Both the position numbers and the translations under genes were made by a program. The notes below the pieces were generated by a model that ran no database searches, was not told the DNA's origin, and was given only the letters and a program-made list of their open reading frames with translations. 42,436 bases of DNA from a virus: positions 1 through 42,436 of the IMG/VR virus record IMGVR_UViG_3300023284_000379; one strand, given 5' to 3'. Within the stretch, counting starts at the first letter, position 1, and each line of letters starts with the position of its first letter. This document shows positions 10,195 to 26,907 of this stretch, one piece after another.

Positions 10195-12081
10195 TTATGC
10201 CAATTTACTCTCAACTGTGATTATATCATTGATAGGTGATTTTAGCGTAATCGTGTCATTGATGGGAGATTTTAGAGTGATCGCAACATTTCTAACAACG
10301 TCTTGTGTGACTATTGCAGCGACCGTGGCGTCGCCGGCCTCGTCCTGGTTGGCTGATATATTGGCAAACTGCTGGTGTACTATCGAGGCGCTCTGGGTGT
10401 CGCCAGCTTCCGCTTGAGCGGCTGAAATGATAACAATATTTTCAATGACAGCGACCTGGCTGTCGCCGGCTTCGGCTTGGCTTGCATTGATACTGACAAC
10501 GTTATTTAGCGCTGCCGTTTGAGTGTCGCCGGCCTCTGTTTGATTGGCCGTGATATCGCTGCTAATGGCCGTGGAAATTGCAGCTGCTTGGCCGTCACCA
10601 GCTTCGGTTTGATTGGCCGCTACGCTGACAAGTGCCTGGATTGCCGCGGCTTGGGTATCGCCCGCCTCGGCCTGACTGGCGCTAATGCTGACAATATTGC
10701 TAAGGGTCGCCGATGTCACGTCGCCGGCTTCGGTTTGGCTGGCAGTTACTGATGAGGTTAATACCCCGATCAATGCGGCAACGGTAGAATCACCGGCCTC
10801 TGTTTGCGCAGCCGACACTTGAACAATTGCCGCCAAATTGGCGGCCGTGGTGTCGCCAGCTTCGGTTTGGGCTGCCGTAATTTCAGACGTAACAATACCG
10901 ACAATTGACGCCACCGTCGCGTCGCCGGCTTCGGTCTGCGCGGCACTGACTTGAACAATGGATTTAAGCGCGGCGACGGTCGCATCGCCATCTTCGGCCT
11001 GGCTTGCGGTTATTGCTATAAGGCCGACTATTGCCGCTGCGGTAGTGTCACCCGCTTCGACTTGATTGGCGGTAATGCTGGCGATGTGCTGGATTGCCGC
11101 GGCTTGGGTATCTCCCGCCTCACTTTGGTTGGCCGTTATTATTGCCGGCGCTTGAACGGTTGCAGACTGCGTATCGCCAGCTTCGGTCTGGTTGGCGGTG
11201 ATACTGACAAGAACGTCGAGGTCTGCGGACTGCGTATCACCCGCTTCCGTCTGGTTTGCGGTGATAGTGGGGGGGCCAACTACGGATGGAACACTATATA
11301 TCGGCGAATTCGCTGATATTAAAAACTGATAAGGCCTGGCTGCAACCCCGGTAAGGGCTTGCATTTCAGCATCTGAAAGATACCTGTTAAAGACGTAAAT
11401 GAAATATAGATCAGCTTGCAAAGCTCTATCGACGGCATCTGGATGCCTACCTATACCAATGTCTTGCCCGTCATTCGTAAAAGAGCCTGATTGAGTACTG
11501 CTTTCAACTTCAACGCCGTCAACGTTGATGTTCATACCGTTAGTTAGGCCGGATTTATACCGAAAACAAAGATTATGATATGTTCCTTCGCCAATAACGT
11601 TAGTGGGCGAAGTTATCTGATTCCCTGCGGCTCTAAGTCTTAAACCTCTAGCACCACTGGTGATAATGGCCCCTAATCTATCGCCGGTAGCGCCATCACT
11701 CTTACAGAAATAACGACCACCTGATCCGCCGGCTGGCATTGCTCTAGCCTTCTGACCTATAACAACAGTGGCTTCACTCCCAAAGTTATCCAATGTAGGG
11801 ACTGAGCCCATTGTCCAGGCATCGGTATCACCGGTATCATCAGTTTTATGAAATTGCCCTTCTGCGTCAGCTCCATGAGTTACCGTTGCAGGATCGGTAT
11901 GAGTAGCATTCTGCTTAGACACCAGGTCGGTGATATTCACGCTTCCAGCATCGTTAAACACCCAACAAGCAACAAGCCCTCTTGATAGCGAGTGCTGTGG
12001 GTTTATTTTAACCTGGTGTAATGGTTGCCGATCGTTCGGAAAGCTTGGATGGAAAAGCTTCGGCAACTGATATATAGCCAT
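10195..12081 (-). CDS. LamG protein with a shaft of 15 tandem 21-residue repeats
   Basis: Residues ~35-250 form a LamG-type jelly roll (GLVACWVFNDAGSVNITDLV, then GTYHNLCFRYKSGLTNGMNI, and YFIYVFNRYLSDAEMQALTG). Residues ~273-596 are 15 tandem copies of a 21-23-residue unit with core ITANQTEAGDTQAAAI plus a short hydrophobic tail; about every third or fourth copy has two extra residues. The C-terminus has two ITLKSPIND units. The layout suggests a globular sugar-binding head on a stiff repetitive shaft. It is encoded between terL and portal, not with the tail-tip genes. Related repeats are known from phage structural proteins of unknown role. Confidence 0.75.
   Translation of the reverse strand: MAIYQLPKLFHPSFPNDRQPLHQVKINPQHSLSRGLVACWVFNDAGSVNITDLVSKQNATHTDPATVTHGADAEGQFHKTDDTGDTDAWTMGSVPTLDNFGSEATVVIGQKARAMPAGGSGGRYFCKSDGATGDRLGAIITSGARGLRLRAAGNQITSPTNVIGEGTYHNLCFRYKSGLTNGMNINVDGVEVESSTQSGSFTNDGQDIGIGRHPDAVDRALQADLYFIYVFNRYLSDAEMQALTGVAARPYQFLISANSPIYSVPSVVGPPTITANQTEAGDTQSADLDVLVSITANQTEAGDTQSATVQAPAIITANQSEAGDTQAAAIQHIASITANQVEAGDTTAAAIVGLIAITASQAEDGDATVAALKSIVQVSAAQTEAGDATVASIVGIVTSEITAAQTEAGDTTAANLAAIVQVSAAQTEAGDSTVAALIGVLTSSVTASQTEAGDVTSATLSNIVSISASQAEAGDTQAAAIQALVSVAANQTEAGDGQAAAISTAISSDITANQTEAGDTQTAALNNVVSINASQAEAGDSQVAVIENIVIISAAQAEAGDTQSASIVHQQFANISANQDEAGDATVAAIVTQDVVRNVAITLKSPINDTITLKSPINDIITVESKLA
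10294..11265. repeat. Coding tandem repeat (~63-69 bp unit, 15 copies)
   Basis: The DNA repeats about every 63 bp, sometimes 69 bp, around the conserved core that encodes Q-T-E-A-G-D-T. Copies differ mainly at silent and hydrophobic positions, so the array is old enough to have diverged but could still change in copy number by recombination. Confidence 0.85.
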
Positions 12082-17790: not shown

Positions 17791-18033
17791 CTATTGTAAA
17801 TTGTCTCTGTGCCGGTTTACGGCCTGTATTAGCTGTATTTCGGCTTCCGTCTTGCCGTTATCAATGAGATTTACCGATTTTCCGTGGTTAGCGCCCAAAA
17901 TATCAACAAAATTGGACAGTTTTCGAAACCTAGTAGCCCATTTCGGTTTACCAAACTTTGCGAGCAAGTGCGAAGTCCCGTACAACAAAGTTCCCAGCGT
18001 CGATAATCCCAAATAAATTTCTATTGGCGTCAT
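17791..18033 (-). CDS. Small membrane protein (80 aa), possible lysis-related
   Basis: Residues 2-24 (TPIEIYLGLSTLGTLLYGTS) form one hydrophobic segment without positive charges. A basic stretch KFGKPKWATRFRKL follows, then a polar C-terminal helix. Its ATG overlaps the stop of the other membrane protein at 18030-18356, so the pair is co-translated. Adjacent single-span membrane proteins in phages are often a holin with an antiholin or spanins, but the endolysin here is encoded 5 kb away. The lysis role is a guess. Confidence 0.55.
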   Translation of the reverse strand: MTPIEIYLGLSTLGTLLYGTSHLLAKFGKPKWATRFRKLSNFVDILGANHGKSVNLIDNGKTEAEIQLIQAVNRHRDNLQ

Positions 18034-18356
18034 AGCTTGTCTTGCCTCGTCAAAATTAATTCAAGAAGTTTTTGCATTGAGCGATTATGTTCCTTTGTCG
18101 TTTCGGTCAAGGCGTCAGTCAATCGATCAAGTCTATCGCAGAGCCTTCCCAGCCATTCTGATTTAGACTCATCCTTGGTCTGTATTTCTTCCCTGATCAA
18201 AGCGGCCACCTCGTTAAGTTGCTCCGTGCTGACAGCGCTGCGTAATCTCTCATCAAAAATATCCATACGATTTAGATTGCGCTTTTGAAAAAACGCTATG
18301 ACGCCAAACAGTGCGGTTAGTGCCAGTCCGGCCAGCCATTTCAAAACTTCATCCAT
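18030..18356 (-). CDS. Membrane-anchored coiled-coil protein (108 aa), holin/spanin candidate
   Basis: The protein has one N-terminal transmembrane segment (VLKWLAGLALTALFGVIAFF) followed by a basic junction QKRNLNR. About 75 residues of charged coiled coil follow (SEWLGRLCDRLDRLTDALTE, ending LLELILTRQDKL). This is the architecture of inner-membrane spanins and of some phage anchor proteins. ATG at 18356 is preferred over the GTG at 18368. It overlaps the next membrane gene by four bases. It is transcribed with the replication gene, so an early membrane role is also possible. Confidence 0.55.
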   Translation of the reverse strand: MDEVLKWLAGLALTALFGVIAFFQKRNLNRMDIFDERLRSAVSTEQLNEVAALIREEIQTKDESKSEWLGRLCDRLDRLTDALTETTKEHNRSMQKLLELILTRQDKL

Positions 18357-18399
18357 CCCCAGCCCCACCCGTAAAGATTTCCCCTGGCGGAATCATAAC

Positions 18400-19242
18400 C
18401 TATTCGGTTAAAGGTGCAAAATTGTAAATCAATTCCTGGATCATGGATTCGAAGCCTGATTTAAAATCATTATTGCATTGCTCGTTAATTGTTTTAGTGC
18501 AAATTTCTCCAAGGGTCGGTTGCTTTAAATTTGTTCGGTTTGCGTCTTCGACTTCACCGCGAATTATTTCCATCACAATGTGCATAGGGCAATTAGCGTC
18601 CAACAAAGTCATTACGGCCAGAGACTCATGTCGTGTAAATTCTACGTCGTGGGCAAGGGGTTCGCCATCCGGTCCTAGCTCGTAGCCAGCGGCCTCTAAC
18701 CAGCAATTAAAAACGGCAAACGAGTCATCCCAAAAGTCTTTTTTTAGCAATTCTTCTTTTTGTAAATTTTTTAGAATATGGTTACTGGTTACTGGTTCTT
18801 GGTTACTGGTTACTGGTTTAGGTGACGATTCGTGCACGGTGTGTTCACGCTTCGTGGTATTTTTAGCACGACTCGTGCTTTTTTTACTACGCTTCGTGCC
18901 GGTTCGTGCACGACCCGCCACGCTTCGTTTCTTTTTTTCCCTGTTTGTAGCAGTGACAGAATTAGCCATGCAGACGCCTTTGTAACGCTGTAAATCTTCG
19001 AAAATATGTTGCTGGACATAGACGCCATTCACACACTTGAAGAACTTGCCTAGCACGAATTGAAGGGCCTCAATTTCGGCTTCTGTGCTCGCCCAAGTCC
19101 AGTCAATTGCCTCGTTCATGGTCGGGAATTTTTCACGGTCATAGCACGAATCAATTAGAACGTTGTAAACCCCATGCTGAAGCAAAGAGAGCTTCCCGGC
19201 CTTGCGGTTATAATCACCAATATTTTTCTTGTACCAGTGCAT
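18400..19242 (-). CDS. DUF1376-type replication protein
   Basis: Residues 1-90 match the DUF1376 pattern of phage replication proteins: MHWYKKNIGDYNRKAGKLSL, then LLQHGVYNVLIDSCYDREKF, and a later VQQHIFEDLQRYKGVC-like segment. Residues ~100-150 are a low-complexity Lys/Arg/Thr/Ser linker encoded by DNA repeats. The C-terminal domain (~150-280) is helical. Such proteins take the place of lambda O in phage replication modules and often carry the origin in their gene. ATG at 19242 follows GGGG. It is the second gene of the left early arm. Confidence 0.75.
   Translation of the reverse strand: MHWYKKNIGDYNRKAGKLSLLQHGVYNVLIDSCYDREKFPTMNEAIDWTWASTEAEIEALQFVLGKFFKCVNGVYVQQHIFEDLQRYKGVCMANSVTATNREKKKRSVAGRARTGTKRSKKSTSRAKNTTKREHTVHESSPKPVTSNQEPVTSNHILKNLQKEELLKKDFWDDSFAVFNCWLEAAGYELGPDGEPLAHDVEFTRHESLAVMTLLDANCPMHIVMEIIRGEVEDANRTNLKQPTLGEICTKTINEQCNNDFKSGFESMIQELIYNFAPLTE
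18732..18930. other. Origin-like region: AT-rich stretch, 7-bp repeats and phased iterons
   Basis: Three parts lie side by side inside the replication gene. An AT-rich stretch spans 18732-18779. Six tandem 7-bp units (GGTTACT and variants) span 18780-18821. Six copies of TTCGTG-like sites start at 18829, 18851, 18872, 18893, 18903 and 18924, spaced 22, 21, 21, 10 and 21 bp. The 10-mer ACGCTTCGTG/T recurs at 18847, 18889 and 18920. This matches the lambda-type layout of iterons next to an AT-rich unwinding element. Confidence 0.6.
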
Positions 19243-19257
19243 AAACACCCCAGCAAT

Positions 19258-19446
19258 CTAGCTTGTGATTGATGTAGATTTGAGCAACTTTTTAGCCTCA
19301 ACTTTCTCCTGTAGCAGCGAGCGTAAAACAGTCGAATAACCGGCGCCAGTTCGCAATCGCTCATTTTCTACCCACTCCATTTGTTCCGCGGTTGGCCTTG
19401 TTGGTGGGAACATTCGCTTAGCCATTATTGGTTTATTTGATTGCAT
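19258..19446 (-). CDS. Small possible ribbon-helix-helix DNA-binding protein (62 aa)
   Basis: The ATG follows GAGG with a five-base spacer. A basic start (MQSNKPIMAKRMFPPTRPTA) leads into two predicted helices (EQMEWVENERLRTG and YSTVLRSLLQEKVEAKK). The strand-helix-helix length and composition resemble CopG/Arc-type dimeric repressors, although the beta-strand pattern is weak. It is the first gene of the left early arm, directly next to the divergent promoters, where phages usually place an early regulator. Function inferred from position. Confidence 0.5.
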   Translation of the reverse strand: MQSNKPIMAKRMFPPTRPTAEQMEWVENERLRTGAGYSTVLRSLLQEKVEAKKLLKSTSITS

Positions 19447-19484
19447 TTTAACCTCTACATTAGTTACAAGTAATATTTTTAGTA

Positions 19485-19512
19485 GTTATAGCAAATAAAA
19501 TTTAATTAACAA
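19485..19512 (-). promoter_or_regulatory. Left early promoter
   Basis: On the minus strand TTGTTA (19512-19507) is followed after 16 bp by TATAAC (19490-19485), about 40 bp before the ATG at 19446. Confidence 0.5.
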
Positions 19513-19519
19513 AACATTA

Positions 19520-19548
19520 TTGACAATTTAATTTTTTGTTAATATATT
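19520..19548 (+). promoter_or_regulatory. Right early promoter (near-consensus sigma70)
   Basis: TTGACA (19520-19525) is followed after exactly 17 bp of AT-rich spacer by TATATT (19543-19548). It is the best sigma70 match in the window and drives the right early arm beginning at 19610. Its -35 box lies 8 bp from the -35 box of the divergent left promoter. Confidence 0.8.
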
Positions 19549-19565
19549 TACGGTAACTTTATTGA

Positions 19566-19587
19566 TGCGCACGAATGCGCTATAGCG
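19566..19587. promoter_or_regulatory. Candidate operator just downstream of the right early promoter
   Basis: Two TGCGC half-sites (19566-19570 and 19576-19580) are spaced 10 bp apart and overlap a perfect 10-bp palindrome CGCTATAGCG at 19578-19587. The site would lie in the first 35 bases of the transcript. TGCGC pairs at 10-bp spacing recur at 26916 and, partly, at 24104. Confidence 0.45.
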
Positions 19588-19609
19588 ATGAACTGACACC
19601 GGAGAGAAT

Positions 19610-20161
19610 ATGGAAGCAATAACAATTGAAGCATCGTTTGTACGCGCAGCGTCAGCCTGCAGGGCTCGATCGGATGTACGGACCTATCTTAACGGCATAT
19701 TCCTTGATAGCGACGGGGCGATCGTTGGAACCAACGGCCACGTTTTATTTGTTACTAAAGGAGATCATAAGCCACCAAAAAATGGCGTAATAATCGACCT
19801 TAAGGGCAAGATACCAGCCAAAGCAACCCGTATAGACCTAATGCCTTTAAGCGATGGAGTGTACGGCTTGGCTAAGTGCTACTCTGAGAATTTGCACAAA
19901 TCGGCGAACAAGCTTATTCCGTTTGAAATTATAGAGGGCAACTACGCTGACTACAAAATAGCAATGCCGGATGGGCCACCACAGGAGGCTAGTGAAATCG
20001 GTTTTAATCCTAAATACTTCTCCCTGGCTGAAAAAGTCTTTGGTGCAAATGGCTGCCGGATGACATTCAGGGGGAAAAATTCTGCTGTCGTTTTACGGCC
20101 GGCCAAAAAGGATAACTGGCCGGCGGATACACTGATGTTGATTATGCCTGTGAAGCTTTAG
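19610..20161 (+). CDS. Short DNA polymerase III beta-clamp-like protein
   Basis: The N-terminal part of this 183-residue protein has the sliding-clamp pattern RTYLNGIFLDSDGAIVGTNG followed by HVLFV: conserved strands and a T-N/D-G-H turn as in DnaN. A later FNPKYFSLAEKVF and a terminal TLMLIMPVKL match the strand ending clamp domains. It is half the length of DnaN (about 366 residues), so it would need a different oligomer to close a ring, or act as a decoy. ATG follows GGAGAG. It is the first gene of the right early arm. Confidence 0.7.
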   Translation: MEAITIEASFVRAASACRARSDVRTYLNGIFLDSDGAIVGTNGHVLFVTKGDHKPPKNGVIIDLKGKIPAKATRIDLMPLSDGVYGLAKCYSENLHKSANKLIPFEIIEGNYADYKIAMPDGPPQEASEIGFNPKYFSLAEKVFGANGCRMTFRGKNSAVVLRPAKKDNWPADTLMLIMPVKL

Positions 20162-24105: not shown

Positions 24106-24199
24106 GCGTAATTTATGGTTTAGTCTATGCAATGTACCGCAACGAGAGAATTAAAGATGGATGATTTTGAACTAGACGACTTTGAAGAGGAATGTAGCT

Positions 24200-24469
24200 A
24201 TGCAGAACAATCGCTTAATATCCAAGCAAAACCAGAGAACGAAGCCAATGGCGACGAAGACAAACAGCAAGCTGGATGCGGGGACCAGATTACATCTGGA
24301 GCGCATGGAGCAGTTCGAAAGGAGAGCGAAGAAGGAAAAATGGTACTCGGTCTTCACGAGGGCATTAGTAATTATGACTATCACCGTGGCCCTGGCGTTA
24401 GCTCTACCGAACTTAAGCACGAGCTCGTTTGTCCAGAGCTTTACCACGCTTACGACACCGGCGAAGTAG
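24200..24469 (+). CDS. Small membrane protein overlapping the RecE-like gene (89 aa)
   Basis: ATG at 24200 follows AGAGG with a nine-base spacer. The frame reads MQNNRLISKQNQRTKPMATK, then a charged helix (DAGTRLHLERMEQFERRAKK), then a transmembrane segment (FTRALVIMTITVALALALPN) and a Ser/Thr tail. The last 130 bases overlap the RecE-like gene in another frame. The alternative is that 24157-24340 is instead the N-terminus of the RecE-like protein (MDDFELDDFEEECSYAEQSL). The transmembrane segment and the ribosome site favour a real gene. Confidence 0.5.
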   Translation: MQNNRLISKQNQRTKPMATKTNSKLDAGTRLHLERMEQFERRAKKEKWYSVFTRALVIMTITVALALALPNLSTSSFVQSFTTLTTPAK

Positions 24470-25191
24470 TCTTCGAAGGAACAAGGCAAACGGCTATCGG
24501 TACGGCTGTCCATGCGCTGACGCTGGAGCCGTTCGACTTTGACAAGCTTATAGCCTTTATTCCTAAAAATTGCCAAGGCAACGCTAAAAATGCCAAGGAG
24601 AATAAAAAAGAATTCAAGCTTGAACATCGCGGCAAAGATTTTGTGAATATCCAAGAATACGATCACATCAAATTTATGCGTGATGCGCTTATGCGACACC
24701 CTGAAGCCGGAGAGCTGTTACGGGCTGAAAACCGGCAAAATGAAATATCCGGTTATTATTTGGATTGGGACGAAGAAACTAAGATCGGCACCCACATGTT
24801 GTGTAAATACCGGCCAGACTTGCGTTTGCCCTGGTGTCTTGGTGATGTAAAGTCAACCAATGACGCGAGTAAAGTGAAGTTTAGAAATACCATTGGGGAG
24901 TTTCGCTACGACGTTTCAGGCGTTCATTATTTGGAGGGCGAGCGAATATTGACGGCCGCCGATCATAACCGTTTTTTCTTTTTAGCGGTTGAGTCAAAAA
25001 AACCCTACCTAGTTGCAGTCTATTGGCTCGATGATATGGGCCTAAAAACTGGCCACTACGGTAGGCGTAAGGCGCTTAAAAGCATCCAGGCTTGTCGCAA
25101 AGCGCAAAAGTGGCCTGGTTATAACAACGATCTGGCCGAGGCCATCGGGCCGCCTGGATATCTTATTTATGAAATGGAGGAAGGACTTTGA
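24340..25191 (+). CDS. recE-like: RecE-like exonuclease (DUF3799-type PD-(D/E)XK)
   Basis: From ATG 24340 (283 aa) the sequence starts MVLGLHEGISNYDYHRGPGV, then SSTELK, the usual start of the DUF3799/RecE C-terminal nuclease family. The core has GTAVHALTLEP, then KYRPDLRLPWCLGDVKSTND, with the Asp and the D-x-K of the PD-(D/E)XK site. It would resect double-strand ends for RecT annealing, encoded 0.7 kb downstream. An AAGGAAAA ribosome site precedes this ATG. The frame is open to 24127, so a longer form with an acidic 60-71-residue extension is possible. Confidence 0.85.
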   Translation: MVLGLHEGISNYDYHRGPGVSSTELKHELVCPELYHAYDTGEVVFEGTRQTAIGTAVHALTLEPFDFDKLIAFIPKNCQGNAKNAKENKKEFKLEHRGKDFVNIQEYDHIKFMRDALMRHPEAGELLRAENRQNEISGYYLDWDEETKIGTHMLCKYRPDLRLPWCLGDVKSTNDASKVKFRNTIGEFRYDVSGVHYLEGERILTAADHNRFFFLAVESKKPYLVAVYWLDDMGLKTGHYGRRKALKSIQACRKAQKWPGYNNDLAEAIGPPGYLIYEMEEGL

Positions 25192-25541
25192 AAATACTAG
25201 AATCGCAAGTGCAAAAGATGGAAATAACTGATTTGGTCGAAGATTTCAAACTGGATGCTGTTGCCGTTATCATAGAAGATTTGTCGGAAGGCGCAGGAAG
25301 GATAACTATTACTTGCTTTGGTCAAGCCTGGACGGCATACTTTGGCGCAATGGGCGGCAAGCATATATCTGAATTCTTTTGTTCTTGTGATGAAGATTAT
25401 TTGGTTGATGCGCTTTCCTTTCGAGGTGAAGACAGGGAGTGCCAGCCGACTTACCTTTATCGTATCATTGCAGCCGTGCAAAAAGCGCTGAATGATACCA
25501 GGAGCCTGAACGAAGCGTTAGGCAAGGACGGCAACGGATAA
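25188..25541 (+). CDS. Conserved RecE/RecT-associated protein (117 aa)
   Basis: The middle reads GAGRITITCFGQAWTAYFGA, then MGGKHISEFFCSCDEDYLVD. This pattern (I.I.C.G.AWTAYWG.MG...EFF.S...DYL...L) recurs as a small protein within phage recombination clusters. Its function is unknown. It overlaps the RecE-like stop by four bases and its own stop overlaps the next start, so the cluster is tightly coupled. Confidence 0.75.
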   Translation: MKILESQVQKMEITDLVEDFKLDAVAVIIEDLSEGAGRITITCFGQAWTAYFGAMGGKHISEFFCSCDEDYLVDALSFRGEDRECQPTYLYRIIAAVQKALNDTRSLNEALGKDGNG

Positions 25542-25897
25542 TGTGCGAAACGCCCAAAGCCTTCACGTCGATCACGCGCAAAGCCCGGAAGTTGCACACT
25601 TGCTGCGAGTGCCGAACTCAAATCAACCCGGGCGATCAGTATCAATACTCGTCTGGCGTCTGGGACGAGCCTGCCAGCTTCAAGCAATGCCTCTTTTGTC
25701 ATATGCTAATGAGCAAAGCTATTATTTTTGATCAAGGCTACATTGTAGGCTTCGGCGGCCTGTCAGAATGGGTTTATGGCCACATGAGCATCCACTTTAA
25801 AGGCCGTGAATTTCTTAACGGTATGGCCGAAATGCTTGACGTAACGGCGGAAGAATTGAACGTACTATTAAAAATGAAACTGGAGACATTGCAATGA
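25541..25897 (+). CDS. Zinc-binding hypothetical protein (118 aa)
   Basis: The N-terminal third has two Cys pairs (HTCCECRTQINPGDQYQYSS, then KQCLFCHMLM), a plausible zinc ribbon. The rest is helical, ending MLDVTAEELNVLLKMKLETL. Start and stop overlap its neighbours (TAATG and ATGA), so it belongs to the recombination cluster between recE-like and recT-like. No family was recognised. Confidence 0.65.
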   Translation: MCETPKAFTSITRKARKLHTCCECRTQINPGDQYQYSSGVWDEPASFKQCLFCHMLMSKAIIFDQGYIVGFGGLSEWVYGHMSIHFKGREFLNGMAEMLDVTAEELNVLLKMKLETLQ

Positions 25898-26907
25898 CAA
25901 AAGAACTTTCCACCGAATCGGTTGCTAGCACGATTGAATCAACTGCGCTGACATCAAATGATCTTATTTTTGCGCCGAATTCTATGCGAGACATGGATGC
26001 CATAGCGCAATTGATGGCGCAAGGTGTTGCGACCGTACCAGAGCATCTTAGACAAAAGCCAGCTGATTGCCTAGCTATCGTCATGCAAGCAGCGGCGTGG
26101 AATATGTCGCCCTATCAGGTGGCCGCAAAGACTCACCTTGTTAGCGGCACATTGGGATATGAGGCCCAGCTAATTAATGCCGTTGTAAGCTCGTCAACGG
26201 CGATTCAAGGAAGGTTTCACTACGAGTTTAGCGAAGGCTGGGAGCGTCTCGCCGGAAAGTCAAGAATTGGCCCGGTCCAGAAAATAAACTTTAAAACAAA
26301 ACAACCATATACCGTCGAACAACCTATAGCAGATTGGACGGCTGAAGATGAAGCAGGGTTGTGGGTCAAAGTTGGCGCCGTAATTGCCGGAGAACAGGAT
26401 ATAACGTGGGGTGAAAAGCTTTTCTTATCCGGCATCCTTGTTCGGAATAGCCCGCTATGGGTAACAAAGCCAGACCAGCAAATTAGCTACTTGGCCTTAA
26501 AATACTGGTCAAGGCTTTATACCCCAGCCGTGATCATGGGCGTTTACACACCAGAAGAGATTCAAGCATTCCCAGATCGAGAACCAGAAAAAGAAGTCAA
26601 AGGCGAACGCGTTGCCGACATGAAACCACAATCCGAGACCGAAGCCGTGCTAGATGATTTTGATGACAGCCCAGCAGCAGAAGAAGGAGAAAAAAAGCAC
26701 GTCTTTGAAGATGTCGATACAATACTACAGGAAATTGCCGGGGCCGAAGAGCTGGACGATCTGGAAGCACTAAAGGACAAAGCGGGGAACGTAGAAGGCA
26801 AATATCTTGACGCCGTGCGTGAGGCTTACAACGCCAGAGGTAAAGCTATCATTCAGAGCTATGGCCCGAAAGATGTTCAAACTGAAAGTAACGACCAGGA
26901 AGAATAA
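25894..26907 (+). CDS. recT-like: RecT-family single-strand annealing protein
   Basis: The 337-residue protein carries the RecT core: MQAAAWNMSPYQVAAKTHLV, then GTLGYEAQLINAVVSSSTAI and later PLWVTKPDQQISYLALKYWS, ending RLYTPAVIMGVYTPEEI. The last 110 residues are acidic and probably disordered. RecT proteins anneal complementary single strands during phage recombination and work with a RecE or Exo nuclease, here encoded upstream. It is the last gene of the tightly packed cluster; a promoter follows. Confidence 0.9.
   Translation: MTKELSTESVASTIESTALTSNDLIFAPNSMRDMDAIAQLMAQGVATVPEHLRQKPADCLAIVMQAAAWNMSPYQVAAKTHLVSGTLGYEAQLINAVVSSSTAIQGRFHYEFSEGWERLAGKSRIGPVQKINFKTKQPYTVEQPIADWTAEDEAGLWVKVGAVIAGEQDITWGEKLFLSGILVRNSPLWVTKPDQQISYLALKYWSRLYTPAVIMGVYTPEEIQAFPDREPEKEVKGERVADMKPQSETEAVLDDFDDSPAAEEGEKKHVFEDVDTILQEIAGAEELDDLEALKDKAGNVEGKYLDAVREAYNARGKAIIQSYGPKDVQTESNDQEE

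Follow-up and report, generated by a model that had tools for sequence, protein, structure and literature searches.

A probable replication origin of phased palindromes and an AACCA array inside the DUF1376 initiator gene of a phage

Introduction

In lambda and the Stx phages, the replication origin lies inside gene O, where inverted-repeat iterons (19-bp imperfect repeats) adjoin an AT-rich tract, and gene P comes next (PMC7466680). The Rac prophage is stated to carry an active origin, oriJ (PMC3945230). Its YdaU is a DUF1376 protein, and YdaV, a putative ATP-binding protein, comes next. As the C-terminus of E. coli YdaU is common to the ‘replication protein O’ of Gifsy-1/2, the DUF1376 domain is linked to lambdoid initiators. 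Other origins, of chromosomes and plasmids, combine duplex boxes with a single-strand motif, including those with the DnaA-trio, the ATCA-type motif of RctB, and plasmid Rep proteins with a DUE (PMC10797057). Several PHROGs families with a DUF1376 domain carry the name ‘primosomal protein’; we found no origin described for these families in the open-licence literature. The same literature yielded no paper treating DUF1376 together with ‘replication origin’, allowing for a possible earlier description in a subscription journal, and no functional data on an origin of the DUF1376/AACCA type. Five papers name DUF1376, each a single time. For the AACCA repeat, sought as letters, the 15 papers listed of 48 were all unrelated.

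Here we analyze a virus contig whose complete record spans 42,436 bases, hereafter the window. Comparison with relatives indicates that positions 18779-18930 are very probably the core of the phage replication origin, lying in the linker-coding part of the phage's own initiator gene. The initial annotation had proposed a lambda-style origin at this place. Relatives support its in-gene layout with iterons; they do not support the AT-rich element as a general component, and the likeness to lambda does not extend to homology with lambda O.

In sequence layout, the locus resembles the lambda/Stx origin in that inverted-repeat iterons lie inside the initiator gene. The initiator gene is followed by gene P in the related Shewanella phage X14. 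An AT-rich tract stands beside the iterons in the window and not in relatives. The locus differs in its initiator domain, which is DUF1376 and not homologous to lambda O, in its repeats, which are 11-bp palindromes rather than 19-bp imperfect inverted repeats, and in its AACCA array, which is not part of the lambda ori description (PMC7466680). In the window, furthermore, the gene directly downstream has no match to the helicase-loader gene P. The Rac ydaU gene differs in turn by lacking an AACCA array and having other repeats in its linker. With the origins that pair duplex boxes and a single-strand motif, the locus shares putative sequence-specific duplex sites that adjoin a short word repeated along one strand. 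The word itself is different (AACCA, at a step of 6-8 bp), the initiator is unrelated by sequence, and single-strand binding is hypothetical in our case. Whereas the DnaA-trio is a trinucleotide repeat beside a DnaA box, the window repeat is AACCANN with a 6-8 bp step.

Results and Discussion

The initiator gene and its protein

The gene and its conserved domain are placed as follows:

18400-19242, minus strand: DUF1376 gene (replication initiator or ‘primosomal protein’), with ATG at 19242 and an alternative GTG at 19248
18994-19239, minus strand: DUF1376 domain (Pfam, residues 2-83), presumed to bind the origin, with a winged-helix-like predicted fold

The protein matches Pfam DUF1376 (PF07120) with E=1.4e-19 and 70.6 bits, above the curated cut-off of 30.1, and a PHROGs ‘primosomal protein’ family with E=5e-33. 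By its N-terminal domain, it thus belongs to the ‘primosomal protein’ families of phages, PHROG 4118 among them. It is not a member of the lambda O family, its only Pfam matches being to DUF1376. Relatives use the equivalent of the ATG at 19242 as their start. An AlphaFold2 model of the domain, with pLDDT mostly above 90, consists of helices and a two-strand wing. Searching the PDB with this fold revealed a weak winged-helix likeness (best E about 0.1), the N-terminal domain of DnaD and ORC2 being among the matches; searching solved structures by sequence with the initiator protein gave no match.

The linker of the window initiator, KKKRSVAGRARTGTKRSKKSTSRAKNTTKREHTVHESSPKPVTSNQEPVTSNH, contains both the palindromes and the heptamer array described below. 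The C-terminal parts of DUF1376 initiators are highly variable. A scan for close relatives with the whole initiator protein found nothing, and a tblastn search against phage records gave 44 matches, in which the aligned part often stops just past the array. According to their annotation, most relatives carry a gene for DnaB, replication protein P, a DnaC-like/AAA loader or a primase-helicase after the DUF1376 gene; a P or loader gene was found in Shewanella phage X14, psageK9 and UFJF_PfDIW6. No helicase or loader is annotated beside the initiator in three relatives, and none was found beside the initiator or among the proteins scanned in the window. The gene that follows the initiator in the window (18030-18368, minus strand) encodes a short protein without likeness to P, DnaC or DnaB, unlike most relatives.

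Phased palindromes in the linker

Six TTCGTG-like sites had been reported with spacings of 22, 21, 21, 10 and 21 bp. Direct reading confirms both the spacings and the sites: TTCGTG at 18829, 18851, 18893 and 18903, CTCGTG at 18872 and TTCGTT at 18924. Every site makes up the right half of an imperfect palindrome of 11 bp, CACG-CTT-CGTG, and the set is better read as six putative palindromic iterons, listed here with the distance of their starts from the array:

18824-18834: iteron 1, GACGATTCGTG, adjoining the array, 16 bp
18846-18856: iteron 2, CACGCTTCGTG, with perfect 4+4 arms, 38 bp
18867-18877: iteron 3, CACGACTCGTG, 59 bp
18888-18898: iteron 4, TACGCTTCGTG, 80 bp
18898-18908: iteron 5, GCCGGTTCGTG, 90 bp
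18919-18929: iteron 6, CACGCTTCGTT, 111 bp

These six distances show a 10.5-bp phase concentration of 0.975 (random P about 1e-4), and the cluster is unique within the 42-kb record. When synonymous codons were permuted in the gene with the protein fixed, six CACGA[AG]/AACGAA sites occurred in 0 of 2000 shuffles (mean 1.0). A looser count that allowed one mismatch was marginal (P=0.044), and it is therefore the exact sites and the relatives that carry the case for the palindromes.

In the clade that resembles the window, CACGAAGCGTG-like sites number 90 upstream of the array, against 27±4 (maximum 37) when codons were shuffled synonymously. Measured to the array, the distances of these sites peak at 26, 37, 47/48, 58, 69/70 and 79/80 bp, with a best-fitting period of 10.5-10.75 bp, and the window distances fall in the same phase. 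The commonest site in relatives, 37 bp from the array, is one base off iteron 2 of the window; the counterpart of iteron 1 is CACGAA/AACGAA, located 15 bp before the first AACCA. In the other clade the palindrome is a different one, AACGNNCGTT, found at 15, 26, 48 and 70 bp and phased at about 11 bp. Palindromes thus differ between the clades, which have the AACCA word in common.

Phased palindromes are also typical of repressor operators, and in relatives the gene lies in the early region beside regulators. The DUF1376 protein could accordingly bind the sites in its own gene to block or tune its transcription, with no role in an origin. We consider such an autoregulatory operator very unlikely. 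The sites are about 400 bp inside the gene, past the promoter; the neighbours are helicase and loader genes; and the fixed order of palindromes and array, together with the strand-specific run of AACCA, is more origin-like.

The AACCA array

Six tandem 7-bp units had been placed at 18780-18821. The units are indeed present, with an extent that differs by a few bases:

18779-18818, minus strand: array of six AACCANN heptamers as read on the coding strand, encoding PVTSNQEPVTSNH

On the coding strand, the units are AACCAGT (twice), AACCAAG, AACCAGT (twice) and a final AACCA, all at 7-bp steps; the top strand reads TGGTTnn six times. The array is unique within the 42-kb record, and six AACCA in a 7-bp run appeared in 0 of 5000 shuffles in which synonymous codons were permuted and the protein was kept. 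An uninterrupted run of AACCAGT would produce an in-frame TAA stop within 21 bp, and the single odd unit AACCAAG is placed exactly to remove it. This fits a DNA repeat that has apparently been bent by coding need. In the present analysis we define a group of DUF1376 initiators with an AACCA array, in which a charged linker is followed, on the coding strand, by at least three AACCA with a step of 6-8 bp; the window, with its six units, belongs to it. AACCA runs also follow the linker in phages of Shewanella, Vibrio, Acinetobacter, Pseudomonas, Thalassomonas and Methylophilaceae. The heptamer array, rather than the TTCGTG set, is the most conserved element.

Selection on DNA rather than protein

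Genes were gathered by the N-terminal protein alone to remove selection for the array. Of the resulting 65 non-redundant genes (54 retrieved by protein, 10 from phages, and the window), 61 contain at least three exact 7-bp units. The motif N..P.T.N was then located by its amino acids and its codons were tabulated. Proline is encoded by CCA in 79/79 cases (background 39% in the same genes), threonine by ACC in 76/79 (background 24%) and asparagine by AAC in 139/140 (background 62%). The third base is A at both variable positions in 79/79, whichever the amino acid, while the spacer positions vary. Binomial values for this test range from 1e-27 to 1e-43, a calculation that ignores shared ancestry.

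The step of the array varies as well. Two loci (L138, L140) have steps of 7, 7, 8, 8 and 7 bp with a changed peptide, and two others (L008, L211) have steps of 8 bp. In Bordetella phage IFTN2 the steps are 6 bp and the peptide is NQNQNQNQ; in P. aeruginosa phPA-G the steps are 7, 6, 8 and 7 bp. The suggestion that DNA function shaped the linker protein is thus supported: an alignment check across relatives, as the initial annotation had advised, came out in favor of DNA-level function, the DNA words and phasing being kept while the residues of the linker, the spacers and the step of the repeat drift.

These data also bear on two other explanations. The N-Q/H-E/K-P-x-T-x linker recurs across the DUF1376 family and might be a conserved peptide motif, for example a helicase contact, with the DNA repeat as its consequence. 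This is highly improbable, given that codon fixation far exceeds the amino-acid need, that the third base stays constant even at positions whose residue may vary, and that the 6- and 8-bp versions and the frame-changing mixtures encode other peptides. Alternatively, the array could act through RNA or structure, either as AACCA in a regulatory mRNA element or as a two-layer G-quadruplex of the complementary GGTT run. It would be consistent with this that the array always lies on the coding strand and that most genes have at least four units, hence at least four spaced GG pairs on the other strand. However, the flanking A is as fixed as the CC in protein-retrieved genes, which a quadruplex does not need, and the helical-turn phasing of the palindromes points to double-stranded DNA; we regard an RNA or structural role as very unlikely.

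Distribution of the array

We also scanned 2.9 million viral contigs for (AACCANN)5 without any protein information, and obtained at least 120 loci. Among the 120 listed, the array fell within a DUF1376 ORF detected by HMM, on its coding strand, in 115, and four more (L038, L065, L075, L127) are contig-edge fragments of the same gene type, raising the count to 119/120; the sole exception (L110) is an unrelated repeat. A scrambled-pattern control in viral contigs gave 69 loci, with 0/69 in DUF1376. This difference indicates that the array belongs to the DUF1376 gene family and to one place in the gene.

In bacterial genome contigs, the scan was swamped by ordinary tandem repeats, only 2 of the 120 matches listed being in DUF1376 by HMM. 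AACCANN repeats of the ordinary tandem kind, mostly with identical spacers and unrelated to DUF1376, occur in genomes of Cyanobacteria, Bacteroidota and others (L283-L402). Such repeats, with identical spacers in 90 of the 120 matches listed, are what neutral slippage of a short tandem repeat could produce. The viral arrays are a different matter: 116 of the 120 listed have two to four different spacers with AACCA intact, and they are restricted to one gene family and position. Slippage is therefore an extremely improbable source of the viral arrays.

Some DUF1376 genes have no AACCA array, including those of YdaU, UFJF_PfDIW6, ppBeUSDA76-2 and the divergent Acinetobacter phage RM_A2 (L011). 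Host does not decide the presence of the array, as the Pseudomonas phages MR13 (with array) and UFJF_PfDIW6 (without) differ. On a tree of the DUF1376 domain, derived from 87 columns only and from a sample partly chosen by array, array type needs 7 changes compared to 31.5 for shuffled labels. Together with the variable C-terminal parts, these observations favor recognition of AACCA by the DUF1376 domain.

Other repeats were observed in the linkers of further DUF1376 genes. Two loci (L407, L408) have a (TCACCT)n repeat, peptide SPSPSP, at the linker position of the AACCA array in window relatives. A DNA-only scan for (TCACCT)n placed it inside DUF1376 ORFs in 34 of the 120 loci listed (L414-L533), a result compatible with DNA or protein selection. 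The linker of Pseudomonas phage UFJF_PfDIW6 (L409) has GAGAA-type 5-bp units, and that of E. coli ydaU (L403, 10120-10977) has AAAGAT/ACAGAT units and GTTCAAAC words.

Flanking regions and other genes

Three features surround the putative origin or its gene:

18732-18778: AT-rich stretch on the 3' side of the array as read along the coding strand, with 24-26% GC over 50 bp, a candidate melting site in the window phage
19258-19446, minus strand: small gene (62 aa) immediately upstream of the initiator, without a family match in Pfam or PHROGs
19447-19609: very AT-rich divergent intergenic region with 10-24% GC and likely promoters

The AT-rich stretch had been proposed as part of the origin. 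It is present in the window and is not conserved in relatives; on the basis of 165 genes, with relatives averaging about 50% AT past the first 10 bp, we rejected it as a general origin component. A small ORF often occupies the position upstream of the initiator in relatives. The intergenic region contains TTGACA-17-TATATT on the plus strand at 19520, and its promoter count is not above that of shuffles. Leftward transcription from this region would cross the putative origin. GC skew was uninformative: its minimum in the window (19387) falls at the switch between the divergent genes, and in four relatives it only tracks gene strand.

Elsewhere in the window, the gene divergent from the initiator (19610-20161, plus strand) encodes a 183-aa protein like the C-terminal part of a DNA polymerase sliding clamp (E=2e-10 to PHROG 947; the Pfam match, DNA_pol3_beta_3, stays below cut-off). 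The plus strand at 24127-26907 carries genes resembling those for exonuclease VIII and RecT, and a protein with many degenerate repeats of the type ITANQTEAGDTQSA is encoded at 10195-12081 on the minus strand.

Proposed mechanism and implications

The order of palindromes, fixed gap and AACCA array on the coding strand is an origin layout in sequence terms, with presumptive initiator sites followed by a presumptive opening element. The same layout in many DUF1376 phages most likely marks the place where DNA copying starts. From these patterns we infer a sequence of binding, opening and helicase recruitment that would give the region origin activity. The DUF1376 domain would bind the 11-bp palindromes, probably as a dimer and, given their spacing in multiples of 10.5 bp, along a single face of the helix; such strict phasing implies duplex binding. 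The initiator complex would then extend from the palindromes to the AACCA array. As the AACCA word is fixed while its step is 6, 7 or 8 bp, the reading of a single strand, or a flexible filament, fits better here than face-specific duplex binding. The array would open, in the window phage along with the adjoining AT-rich stretch, and the variable C-terminal part of the protein would recruit a helicase or loader.

AACCA is an apparently undescribed element and possibly an unwinding or single-strand site. More tentatively, and with somewhat less than even expectation, we suggest that the DUF1376 domain reads AACCA strand-specifically on melted DNA. The origin would then have two parts, phased duplex palindromes and a single-strand array, with a logic like that of DnaA boxes and the DnaA-trio, and other clades would use other short repeats, such as TCACCT, at the same place.

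These findings give a likely job to DUF1376, which is annotated as of unknown function in many phages. A simple DNA pattern may now serve to locate the origin in DUF1376/AACCA phages. The locus also provides a case of strong DNA selection on a stretch inside a protein-coding gene. In addition, the flexible 6-8 bp step of the array, in contrast to palindromes that keep strictly to a 10.5-bp phase, leads to a testable prediction on strand opening in these phages.
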